Below are positions 1 to 48,216 of a stretch of 64,000 bases of DNA, piece by piece. This stretch comes from Natronorubrum sediminis (GTDB lineage Archaea > Halobacteriota > Halobacteria > Halobacteriales > Natrialbaceae). The notes below the pieces were generated by a model, which saw only the letters and a program-made list of their open reading frames with translations, did not search any database and had not been told where the DNA came from. The translations under genes were made by a program, and so were the position numbers. The DNA is taken from assembly GCF_900108095.1 (NCBI RefSeq), contig NZ_FNWL01000002.1, forward strand, positions 478,748 through 542,747. Direction: 5' to 3'. The first letter of the stretch is position 1, and each line of letters starts with the position of its first letter.

Positions 1-1459
1 GTTTCACTCGCCGACTCGAGTGAGATCCGGGGAGAGCGTACCGGCGTCGGCACGTCGGAGACGAACGCTGAGCGCACACCACTCGAGCAAGCGGTTACTG
101 ACGTGTTACAACACGTATTCGTGCTAGACTGTGTCGTTCGGACGGAGGGTCAGTACCCGATCGACCTCGCCGAACGAAGGCAACTCGAGGAGCGCGTCGA
201 CTTACCGTTGGAGACGCTCTATGCGGCACCGATTGCCGAGCGGGTGACGACGTACGTGGACGTCCCATTCGACGTAACGAAAGACCTCGTCCCAACGTGG
301 CAACTCTCGACGCACGTCTCGCCGGATCCCGAATCGATCGAGATTCTCTCCTACGCGGCGAACACGCTGTCACTGATCAGCGTCGAGCAACAGCACCAAC
401 ACGTCGATACGGCATCCGAACCGCCCGGCTACGGCGCGCTCACCAGGAGCGTCTCCCGTGAAGCCGAACCCGTAGAACCAGCCGTCGAGCCGTCTTACAT
501 TCGGATTTCGTCGTCCGACACGCTCGAACAGGCCTGGTTTGGCGAGGGTCGCTCGGTCAACGCGAACGACCTCTCTATCGAGAGCGTTCGAAATCGATTC
601 ACGTCAGAACCCGCCGACGGACCGATCGAAATCGGTGTCGTCTGCAACGAGGCGCAGATGGCCCCCGAGGTGAGCGAAGCGGCACTCTACGGTGATCGAA
701 AGGATCTCCCCTTCGACGTCTCGTCGTACCGAAACCTCTCGTGTCGCGAACTCGCAGACGTCTTGCAACGTGATCTCGACTTCCTCCACTACGTCGGTCA
801 CGTGTGATCTCGACTTCCTCCACTACGTCGGTCACGTTAACAAATCGGGGTTCGTCTGCCAGGACGGCACGCTCGACGCAACCGAACTCGAGGCGGTCGG
901 CGTCGACACGTTCTTGCTCAACGGCTGTCGGTCGTACGATCAGGGGCAGGTGATGATCGAACGCGACAGCATCGGCGGCATCGTCACCACTGGCGCGATC
1001 AACAATACGAAAGCGATTCCGGTCGGACGGCTCATCGCCGGACTTCTCAACAGAGGGTACTCGCTGCGTTCGGCGCTGACCGTCGTCAGTCAACGACACA
1101 CGGTGGACGGACGGTACACCGTCATCGGCGACGGTGGGATTCAGATCGCTCAATCGGAAAATGGGACGCCGAATCTCCTGCAGATCGATCGGGCATCGGA
1201 CGGGCACGGCTACGACGTTCGGATCGCAACCTTCCCCGTAATCGGTCGCGGAATGGGGTCGTGTTACACACCGTACGCGCCGAGCGTCGATCGATATTTC
1301 CTCGTCGGCGGCGACCTCCCGGCGCTTACGATGTCACTTCCCGACGTCGTCTCGTTGCTCTCACTCGAGCGGGTCCCCACCGTTATCGACGGTGAGTTTA
1401 GGTGGTCAACCGACATCGCGCCGACGGAACTTCCCGGCAGAGATTCAGACGCCGAGTAA
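1..1459 (+). pseudogene. CHAT-domain (caspase-like) protease, 5'-truncated by window and frameshifted
   Basis: The frame is open from base 1, so the gene begins left of the window. It reads in frame 1 to a TGA at 805-807 and then continues in frame 2 to a TAA at 1457-1459. The break is caused by a perfect 34-bp tandem duplication (770-837); with one copy removed, a single continuous frame results. The downstream half carries LHYVGHV (candidate catalytic His) and FLLNGCRSY (candidate catalytic Cys), the spacing and context of CHAT peptidases of the caspase clan, followed by GGIVTTGAINN. The upstream roughly 250 residues show no motif I recognise. CHAT proteins act as proteases in signalling, cell death and type III CRISPR-associated immunity; the role here is unknown. 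An intact downstream fragment could start only after the His motif, so neither piece alone should be an active protease. Family call is from motifs only. Confidence 0.7.
770..837. repeat. Perfect 34-bp tandem direct duplication inside the CHAT gene
   Basis: Bases 770-803 and 804-837 are identical over 34 bases; the flanking bases (769 versus 803, 804 versus 838) differ, so the unit is exactly 34 bp. Because 34 is not a multiple of 3 it shifts the frame by +1, and copy 2 supplies the premature TGA. The duplicated unit encodes DLDFLHYVGHV, the His motif of the CHAT domain. No mobile-element ends or target-site signature are seen around it. Confidence 0.97.
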
Positions 1460-29859: not shown

Positions 29860-30252
29860 TTATGATTCGTCCTCGTCCTCGTCCTCATCCTCATCCTCTG
29901 GATCGTCTTCGTCTTCAGGGTCCTCCTCGTCCTCGGGATCTTCTTCGTCCTCATCTTCGGCTTCAGGGTCTTCTTCATCCTCAGGATCTTCTTCGTCGTC
30001 CATCGGATCGTCTTCCTCGTCTTCAGGATCCTCTTCATCCTCCGGATCCTCTTCATCTTCGGGATCTTCCTCGTCTTCAGGATCCTCCTCGTCCATCGGA
30101 TCGTCTTCCTCGTCTTCAGGATCGTCCTCGGCAGGATCGTCCTCAGGGTCTTCTTCTGGATCTTCACCGTTGTCGTTACATCCAGCGATAGCTGCGAAGC
30201 TCACTGCGCCACTCAGCGCGAGCAGTCGTCTGCGTGTTAATCGATCCGTCAT
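29860..30252 (-). CDS. Tat lipoprotein with mature chain made of Asp/Glu/Pro repeats
   Basis: 130 residues. Signal: RLTRRRLLALSGAVSFAAIAGC, twin-arginine plus lipobox, so export and lipid anchoring are expected. The rest, about 105 residues after NDNGEDPEE, consists almost only of Asp, Glu and Pro with an occasional Met, in irregular repeats of EDEEDP. No folded domain can be present. The DNA is a degenerate 12- to 18-base repeat that may vary in copy number between strains. Possible roles are cation or water binding at the surface; this is inference. The unusually serine-rich opposite frame is an antisense shadow. Confidence 0.8.
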   Translation of the reverse strand: MTDRLTRRRLLALSGAVSFAAIAGCNDNGEDPEEDPEDDPAEDDPEDEEDDPMDEEDPEDEEDPEDEEDPEDEEDPEDEEDDPMDDEEDPEDEEDPEAEDEDEEDPEDEEDPEDEDDPEDEDEDEDEDES

Positions 30253-30549: not shown

Positions 30550-31206
30550 TTATTCGTCCTTTCCGACGCTGATTACTTGTAAGAGCGAATAAATTGGCAC
30601 GCCCTCTAATTCCTCGAGTCCCTGTTTGTCAGCGAGGACGACACACGCCAGTGGCTCACCACCCTCTGCGCGAATTGCTTCGATCGTCTCGCGCATGGTC
30701 GTGCCGCTGGTGATGGTGTCGTCGACGATGTAGCACTCTCGGTCGCGAATGCTCGCGAAGTTCCGGCTGAACGTCCCGCCGAGATCCTCGATGTCACCTT
30801 CCTCCCACTGGTGTTTCGCCGGCGTGTACGTCGCCAGATCGGTCTCGAGTTCGCGCGCGATCAGCGTCGCGATTGGGCCACCTGCCTTCTCGATTCCGAT
30901 CGTGAGGTCGACGTCCTTGCCGTGTTTGAGGAGCAGATCGGCCATCGCCTCCGCGATCGCCCCCATTCGTTTACTATCTCGACCGATGGCGGACCAATCG
31001 ACGTGAATGTCCTGTGGGCCACTAGCGGGACTGGCGGTTGCTTCTTGTCCCGACTGATTCGATTGCTGAGTCGTCGCGCCGCTTCGTTCGACGAGCCAAC
31101 TCGCCGTCTCCCGCGAGACGTTCAGTTCGTCCGCAATTTCACCCTTCGAGAGGCCACGAGCGGCGAGCTCGGCGGCACTCTCGATCAAGTCGTCGACGTT
31201 TTTCAT
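30550..31206 (-). CDS. gfcR: GfcR-type transcriptional regulator (HTH plus PRTase domain)
   Basis: 218 residues. An N-terminal helix-turn-helix (ARGLSKGEIADELNVSRETASWLV) is fused to an orotate-phosphoribosyltransferase-like domain with HWSAIGRD-like DWSAIGRDSKRM, DLTIGIEKAGGPIATLIA and the PRPP loop CYIVDDTITSGTTMRETI. In haloarchaea this PyrE-like protein is GfcR, which controls sugar-degradation (Entner-Doudoroff and lower glycolysis) genes and is thought to sense a phosphorylated sugar. It lies divergent from a HAD-family gene. A true pyrE would lack the N-terminal HTH. Confidence 0.85.
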   Translation of the reverse strand: MKNVDDLIESAAELAARGLSKGEIADELNVSRETASWLVERSGATTQQSNQSGQEATASPASGPQDIHVDWSAIGRDSKRMGAIAEAMADLLLKHGKDVDLTIGIEKAGGPIATLIARELETDLATYTPAKHQWEEGDIEDLGGTFSRNFASIRDRECYIVDDTITSGTTMRETIEAIRAEGGEPLACVVLADKQGLEELEGVPIYSLLQVISVGKDE

Positions 31207-31347
31207 ATACTCGCAAATTCGAGCGCCGTTTTTATAGTCGTGTCGTCGTTCACCGACGAATCGGAAAACCCCGTCCGCTCGAGCAGTCGGGCACCGACCT
31301 GTCTCCACCTGAAAACGATTATCTGCCTGCTCCTCGCTGCTAGGATC

Positions 31348-32601
31348 ATGGAACGGTACGATCTCGTCTACCAGCTCTACGACGAGTACGACACGGGAAC
31401 GTTGCGGGAGTATCAGGCGTTCGTCGACGTGTTTCCGGCCGTCGACTCCCGGGTCGCCCTCGAGCACTGGCAGGACGCGAACGAGGAACTCGAGCGACGG
31501 AAGAACGAGATCCGGGCCGATTTCGCGGCCGGAGAGACGTTCGCCGAAATCGCCTCACGTGCCTCTCGCGATCAGGCGTTTACGGCGCTCGATCTCGAGG
31601 CGAAGTACGGCCGCGCGGTGAACGTGCTCGTCCTCGACGTCGACGAGACGCTTCGGTCGGCTGGTGGCACGGACAACGAAATCCCACGCGATACGTTGCA
31701 CGTACTGACCGAATTTCACGAAGCCGGCGTGCCGATCGTCATCTGTACGGGCCAGACCTTAGAGAACGTCAAGGGGTTCGCGATTCAGGGATTAGGGAGC
31801 GAAATCGTTCACTCGGGGGAACTCTCGATCGTCTACGAGGCTGGGACGGGAGTGTTCACGCCCGGCCACGGCGAAGCGACGAAGCAACTGCTCTACGAGG
31901 AACTCGACGAGACGATTCGAAACGTGTTCGACGACATCCGCTCGCGGGTGTTGCCCGAGGCTCCGGGAGATCTGCGACGTGGCTGTCATCTGCAGGGCAA
32001 CGAGTTCAACGTCACGATGAAGCCGAACTACGAAACCGGCTCGAGCAAGGTCAGAGAGACCATCGACACAGCATTGGTCTACCTCATCGACTTGCTCGCA
32101 GACGCCGTCGGAACCCATCTCGGGGATGATATCGAAAGCGAGGAAACGGTGGTCGACTGGACGCGGGCGTTCTACGCCGCGCAGGATCCCGAGATCAGAG
32201 CGGTTCTCGAGAGCGAAGGCGGATACCCCGACCTCGATGCTGATGAGCTACCCGCCACGCTCGAGTCGGTCTTAGAGCGGATCGACGTGGCCTACTACGA
32301 AGCTGACGCGGCCGAGATCGGGAGCCTCGAATTGAACAAGGTCGTCGGTGTCGAACGATCGCTCGACGTGCTCGGTGTCGACGACCCGTTTTCACTCGTG
32401 ATGGGGGACTCGAAGAGCGATCTACGCGTCATGCGGTGGGTCGACGAAAACGACGCAGGAATCTCAGCAGCCCCCGAACACGCCTCACAGGACACGCTCG
32501 AGCACGTCCTCGAGACGGACGAACTCGTCTTCGATCGCGGAAAGAGCGTCGACGTGTTGCGGACGGTGTACGCGCTCAATCGGTTGGCTCGACTCGGCTA
32601 A
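31348..32601 (+). CDS. HAD-superfamily hydrolase, haloarchaeal
   Basis: 417 residues. After an approximately 90-residue N-terminal helical region (LVYQLYDEYDTGTLREYQAFV) comes the HAD motif I VLVLDVDETLRS, motif II PIVICTGQTLENV, and motifs III/IV with KVVGVERSLDVLGVDD and SLVMGDSKSDLRVMRW, as in Cof-like/type IIB phosphatases. The catalytic aspartates are all present. Substrate unknown. A long spacer between motifs forms the cap. The frame is open upstream to 30811, but that part is antisense to gfcR; ATG 31348 begins the conserved portion. Confidence 0.8.
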   Translation: MERYDLVYQLYDEYDTGTLREYQAFVDVFPAVDSRVALEHWQDANEELERRKNEIRADFAAGETFAEIASRASRDQAFTALDLEAKYGRAVNVLVLDVDETLRSAGGTDNEIPRDTLHVLTEFHEAGVPIVICTGQTLENVKGFAIQGLGSEIVHSGELSIVYEAGTGVFTPGHGEATKQLLYEELDETIRNVFDDIRSRVLPEAPGDLRRGCHLQGNEFNVTMKPNYETGSSKVRETIDTALVYLIDLLADAVGTHLGDDIESEETVVDWTRAFYAAQDPEIRAVLESEGGYPDLDADELPATLESVLERIDVAYYEADAAEIGSLELNKVVGVERSLDVLGVDDPFSLVMGDSKSDLRVMRWVDENDAGISAAPEHASQDTLEHVLETDELVFDRGKSVDVLRTVYALNRLARLG

Positions 32602-46749: not shown

Positions 46750-48216
46750 ATGAGCAACGCCACGTTCGACGCCGACGGAATCACGCTTGAGCAGGTGCGT
46801 GAGTACGTCTGGGAGGTTCCACAGACGGGGAACATGCGCGCGCCCGCTCGTTTCCTGGCGAGCGAAGCGCTTCTCGAGGAGATCACGGAAGACAAAACGC
46901 TCGAGCAGATTTCGAACACGACCCACCTGCCGGGGATCACGAATCACGCGATCTGCATGCCCGACGGCCACCAGGGATACGGTTTTCCGGTCGGCGGCGT
47001 CGGTGCACTCGACGCCGAAGACGGCTGTATCTCCCCCGGAGCAGTAGGATACGACATCAACTGCGGTGTCCGGATGATGCGAACGAACCTGACCTACGAC
47101 GACCTCCAGGGCCGCGAGGAGGAACTCGTCGACTCCCTCTTTGCAAACATCCCGTCGGGACTCGGTGGCGGTGGCATCGTCGAGGCTGACGTCGACACCG
47201 TCGACGAGATCCTCGCACGTGGTGTCGATTGGGCCCTCGAGAACGGCCACGCCGTCGAAGCGGATCTGCTCCACTGTGAAGACGAGGGAATGCGAGAGGG
47301 TGCGGATCCCTCGAAGGTCTCCCAGAAGGCCAAAGACCGCGGGAAAAACCAGATCGGTTCGCTCGGGTCGGGGAATCACTTCCTCGAGGTCCAGCGGGTG
47401 ACTGACGTCTTCGACGACGAGGTCGGCGACGCGTTCGGACTCGAGGAAGACCAGATCGTGGTTCTCATCCACTGTGGCTCGCGCGGACTGGGTCACCAGA
47501 CGTGTAACGATTACCTCCGGAAGATCGAGAAACAACACCAGGGCTTGCTGAATCAGCTCCCGGACAAAGAGCTGGCCGCAGCGCCCGCTGGCTCTCAACT
47601 CGCTGAGGACTACTACGCGGCGATGAACGCGGCGATCAACTTCGCGTGGGTCAACCGACAGCTGATCATGCATCGCACGCGGCAGGTGTTCGAACGCGTC
47701 TTCGAGCGCTCGTGGGAGGCGATGGAGATGGACCTGCTCTACGACGTGGCCCACAATATCGCGAAGAAGGAGACGCACGATGTCGACGGCGAGGAGCGGG
47801 AACTCTTCGTCCACCGAAAGGGCGCGACTCGAGCGTTCCCCGCTGGCCACCCCGAAGTGCCGAAAGCGTACCGCGACGTCGGCCAGCCGGTCATCATCCC
47901 CGGCAGCATGGGCGCGGGTAGCTACGTCCTTCGCGGCGGCGAGAACTCGATGGATCTCACGTTCGGCTCGACGGCCCACGGCGCGGGGCGGCTAATGAGT
48001 CGAACGCAGGCGAAAGACGAGTTCTGGGGCGGCGACGTGCAGGACGAACTCGAGGAACAAGACCAGATTTACGTCAAAGCACAGTCGGGTGCGACGGTCG
48101 CCGAGGAAGCACCCGGCGTCTACAAGGACGTCGACGAGGTCGTCCGCGTCTCGGACGAACTCGGGATTGGCGACAAGGTTGCGCGGACGTTCCCCGTGTG
48201 TAATATCAAGGGCTAG
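46750..48216 (+). CDS. rtcB: tRNA-splicing RNA ligase RtcB
   Basis: 488 residues. Manganese-site residues GYDINCGVRM (Asp102, Cys105) and the active-site HGAGR (nucleotidylated His, about residue 409) are in place, with ICMPDGHQGYGFPVGGVG, LIHCGSRGLGHQ, KGATRAFPAGHPEVP and GSMGAGSYVLRGGENS. It joins 2',3'-cyclic-phosphate and 5'-OH RNA ends, chiefly tRNA exons. Fully sized, no intein apparent (relatives often carry one). The archease gene upstream is the expected partner. Confidence 0.96.
   Translation: MSNATFDADGITLEQVREYVWEVPQTGNMRAPARFLASEALLEEITEDKTLEQISNTTHLPGITNHAICMPDGHQGYGFPVGGVGALDAEDGCISPGAVGYDINCGVRMMRTNLTYDDLQGREEELVDSLFANIPSGLGGGGIVEADVDTVDEILARGVDWALENGHAVEADLLHCEDEGMREGADPSKVSQKAKDRGKNQIGSLGSGNHFLEVQRVTDVFDDEVGDAFGLEEDQIVVLIHCGSRGLGHQTCNDYLRKIEKQHQGLLNQLPDKELAAAPAGSQLAEDYYAAMNAAINFAWVNRQLIMHRTRQVFERVFERSWEAMEMDLLYDVAHNIAKKETHDVDGEERELFVHRKGATRAFPAGHPEVPKAYRDVGQPVIIPGSMGAGSYVLRGGENSMDLTFGSTAHGAGRLMSRTQAKDEFWGGDVQDELEEQDQIYVKAQSGATVAEEAPGVYKDVDEVVRVSDELGIGDKVARTFPVCNIKG

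Follow-up and report, generated by a model that had tools for sequence, protein, structure and literature searches.

Structure of the gene and of the duplication

The stretch of Natronorubrum sediminis DNA analysed here (64,000 nucleotides, positions 478748-542747 of contig C2, hereafter the window) opens inside a CHAT-like gene whose ATG lies 725 bp before base 1 and overlaps the TGA of the upstream gene. An intact product of about 716 amino acids is expected from this gene, but here the protein ends after residue 510. The interruption falls within positions 770-837, where a 34-bp unit, GTGATCTCGACTTCCTCCACTACGTCGGTCACGT, is present twice, the two copies being adjacent and identical (Tandem Repeats Finder: period 34, 2.0 copies, 100% match). 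Translated in the frame of the gene, the first copy reads RDLDFLHYVGHV and is followed by the TGA at 805-807, that is bases 2-4 of the second copy, brought in by the +1 shift; the protein thus ends without a foreign tail. The second copy shares the frame of the downstream part, which continues as DLDFLHYVGHVNKSGF...LLNGCRSY..., contains the invariant Cys codon (NGCRS) at 926-928 and runs up to the regular stop codon of the gene (1457-1459; Table 1). These results confirm what the earlier note had read from the letters of the locus, namely two identical adjacent 34-bp units, a frame shift for which the second copy supplies the stop, and a Cys motif situated after the break.

Table 1. Parts of the interrupted CHAT-like gene and of the tandem duplication, in window coordinates.
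Feature	Position	Strand	Remarks
CHAT-like gene, 5' part	1..807	+	Start codon 725 bp before the window; ends at the premature TGA 805-807; 92% identity with residues 1-510 of the protein of sister species G003, which is intact
34-bp unit, copy 1	770..803	+	Normal frame of the gene; His codons 787-789 and 799-801
34-bp unit, copy 2	804..837	+	Identical to copy 1; shares the downstream frame; codon 833-835 encodes the presumed catalytic His
CHAT-like gene, remainder in shifted frame	806..1459	+	97% identity with the intact G003 protein (residues 500-716)

The exact match stops at precisely 68 bases and extends on neither side, which indicates a junction without microhomology, and a microhomology-mediated duplication was ruled out on this ground. 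Simple slippage between the ACGT motifs found at both ends was rejected as well, as it would yield a unit of 32 bp and not of 34. When three mismatches were tolerated, the unit was found in only two places in the window, for a shuffle expectation of 0.00. The whole-genome search returned no further significant place (next best E value 0.12) and no copy was found in viral contigs, which ruled out a dispersed or mobile repeat.

Intact orthologue in a sister species

The comparison with relatives proposed in the earlier note did reveal a one-copy version of the gene. In the sister species G003, the orthologue is syntenic, has an open frame of 716 amino acids and carries a single copy of the unit, with 3 substitutions relative to the 34-bp sequence. 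DNA identity between the two species is 92.8% on one side of the break and 94.6% on the other. The frame is disrupted here, against an intact orthologue in the same neighbourhood, as in a loss of function. Since two copies were observed in no other relative, we infer that a single copy was the ancestral state. The scan of named genomes returned only two distant relatives and did not find a second strain of the species.

Assignment to the CHAT-like proteases

In all of the 43 intact homologues, a His motif (H[YF]xGH) and a Cys motif (N[AG]CxS) are present and the spacing from His to Cys is constant at 31 residues. The His motif lies in the 34-bp unit, in both copies, which supports the location that the earlier note had given to the presumed catalytic His. 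The Pfam CHAT profile (PF12770) matched neither the pieces found in the window nor the intact G003 protein, and gave weak matches for two of the 25 aligned homologues (best E value 0.0019). A full-length homologue, L087, passes the cut-off of this profile (37 bits versus 24) over the stretch that bears the motifs; it comes from the same order and shares 34% identity over residues 9-703 (E value 3e-116). Taken together, the motifs of the 43 homologues and the match of L087 uphold the earlier naming of the gene as a CHAT protease, in the form of a CHAT-like (caspase-type cysteine) protease which is very likely the product of this gene, assigned through its family.

The likeness to CHAT proteases (PF12770; e.g., the TPR-CHAT/Csx29 protein of Craspase) lies in the GH-ending His motif followed by an NAC/NGC Cys motif, and in the same region being recognized by the profile in a full-length homologue. 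In contrast, the present protein is itself below PF12770 detection, its protease activity is only predicted, neither TPR repeats nor CRISPR genes were identified with it, and its partner is a HalOD1-DUF7504 protein. A profile search of the PDB gave no match for the protein, and the structure model, built from five sequences, was too poor for use (mean pLDDT 39.7). No relatives of the CHAT-like protein were found in viral contigs. PADLOC returned no match, so that a known defence system is not indicated.

Partner gene and distribution of the family

The gene directly upstream of the CHAT-like gene encodes a HalOD1 domain and DUF7504. Haloarchaeal proteins in which HalOD1 is fused with a KaiC-type ATPase that is divergent and possibly inactivated have been described (PMC5847659), and DUF7504, probably KaiC-like, would correspond to this ATPase domain. 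In most of the regions examined, a DUF7504-type partner is located just 5' of the CHAT-like gene. Relatives of the protease were detected in each of the 125 family genomes searched, with at least one and usually two or more per genome, and the present genome retains two more intact CHAT-like genes, distantly related to this one, on contigs C3 and C1, at approximately 36% and 30% identity. Other species of the genus (L035-L041) carry two tandem CHAT-like genes behind one DUF7504-type gene, for example at L035:5637-7709 and L035:8770-10770.

Our literature search on CHAT proteins in haloarchaea and on the DUF7504-CHAT pair found nothing. The wider interest of the locus lies in the repeated pairing of CHAT-like proteases with DUF7504-type regulators, the latter being joined to HalOD1 in the present case; a natural knockout next to an intact sister species offers a handy entry point to the role of this pair. 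The duplication per se is an ordinary route to gene loss.

Age of the break

Behind the break, the gene differs from its G003 orthologue non-synonymously in 6 codons and synonymously in 12, corresponding to a dN/dS of 0.165, in comparison with 0.205 before the break, 0.301 for the partner gene and 0.19 for mutS. The polarisable amino-acid differences (12 versus 15) show no excess on the branch of the present genome, and no second lesion was found in the CHAT-like gene. Relaxed constraint after the break was therefore not detected, either in dN/dS or in the branch changes relative to G003; its absence is expected if the break is recent and informs the age of the lesion more than its status as a pseudogene. 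The substitution counts are low and have small power on age, and they fit a young break.

From the DNA divergence, we estimate that the two copies would differ at about two positions even had the duplication occurred when the two species separated. The earlier note had concluded from the undiverged copies that the event was either recent or maintained; their identity does fit a young duplication, but 34 bp constitute weak evidence of age. The recent inactivation that it also proposed is favoured by the intact one-copy relative and by a downstream half without decay.

Origin of the broken gene

We consider it probable that the CHAT-like gene was recently knocked out by the 34-bp tandem duplication, as an ordinary loss of function. 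The duplication would have arisen without microhomology in the haloarchaeal CHAT-like gene; by shifting the frame and introducing a stop, it ends the product just past the presumed catalytic His, and thus deprives it of the Cys. The truncated protein is expected to have no protease activity, and the event would be one among the sporadic losses that strike this multi-copy family. The locus resembles the frameshifted pseudogenes of multi-copy families in having a single lesion in a gene otherwise well kept, whose orthologue is intact in a sister species. The other broken family members differ from it in that their lesions, located elsewhere in the gene, are one- or two-base indels instead of a 34-bp duplication.

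The lesion could also be the product of a sequencing or assembly error, the true gene being intact with one copy. The genome is represented by one assembly (3.78 Mb in 6 contigs) in which a repeat is interrupted by N at least once, and the absence of decay in the downstream half would agree with an error. Against this reading, the 68-bp repeat is shorter than an ordinary read, and 68 ORFs were picked in 78 kb of G003 for comparison with the present genome: in the 63 of them that could be compared, over about 76 kb, the only credible frame break was the one described here, which indicates that the assembly is not generally noisy. In addition, a survey of the genome itself (20 stretches of 20 kb sampled, about 0.5 Mb) contained no other perfect tandem duplication of at least 20 bp that would shift a reading frame by its length. 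An error at this site appears unlikely to us.

The on/off switch suggested in the earlier note, in which two copies would be the OFF state and slippage or recombination to one copy would turn the protease ON in some cells, seems highly unlikely. A single copy would indeed be in frame, the two units adjoin each other without a difference, and constraint persists in the downstream half, but these facts are true of any young duplication. Furthermore, the array has two copies, which is the minimum, the closest orthologue carries one, the other broken family members have different lesions elsewhere, and neither copy-number variation nor in-frame expansion was found at the repeat site in the 43 homologues, where the His-Cys distance is constant at 31; the switch is left without support by these data. 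The gene shares with phase-variable tandem-repeat genes a coding repeat unit that is not divisible by three and a single copy that is in frame, and differs from them in its two copies only and in the invariance of its relatives. Reversion is conceivable in principle, because tandem duplications may collapse and dropping one unit would restore the frame here, as it would after any tandem duplication. Nothing indicates that selection maintains the duplication as a switch, and we give very little credence to a frequently reversing switch on the active site of a caspase-like protease, with active enzyme in only a minority of cells. It is equally hard to believe that the truncated 510-amino-acid protein has a function of its own, such as that of a partner without protease activity for the HalOD1-DUF7504 protein, and that the break was selected. 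Its clean end without a foreign tail and the retention of the whole N-terminal part would agree with such a role, but the truncation was found in a single genome, and conservation is no lower past the break than elsewhere in the gene, which a young accident would lead one to expect.

Other observations

Several further differences were flagged in the ORF comparison with G003. A second break, at approximately 31014-32598 of the window, proved to be spurious, the ORF having been extended too far upstream; the other flagged ORFs were one doubtful antisense ORF and one with a small difference at its start. The RtcB-like RNA ligase gene at 46750-48213 has no intein, while its G003 counterpart contains approximately 475 extra in-frame residues, intein-like, at the equivalent of window position 47064; the gene was flagged for this insertion, which does not break the frame.

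Broken CHAT-like genes were also encountered in other genomes. In Haladaptatus halobius PSR5 (L053:5500-5760), the frame is shifted within six consecutive G immediately after the Cys motif, which may reflect a sequencing error or else a further natural break. The genomes G103 (L065:6080-6330) and G104 (L066:6280-6480) each contain a CHAT-like gene disrupted by small frame-breaking indels, at different sites. Some of the small indels in broken relatives may be sequencing errors.

Among other repeats, a perfect 17-bp tandem duplication, apparently intergenic, is located at L081:3820-3853 of the same genome. A long imperfect array of short repeats of the TCGTCC/TCAGGATCC type occupies positions 29867-30153 of the window, and its minus strand possibly encodes an acidic segment of low complexity.
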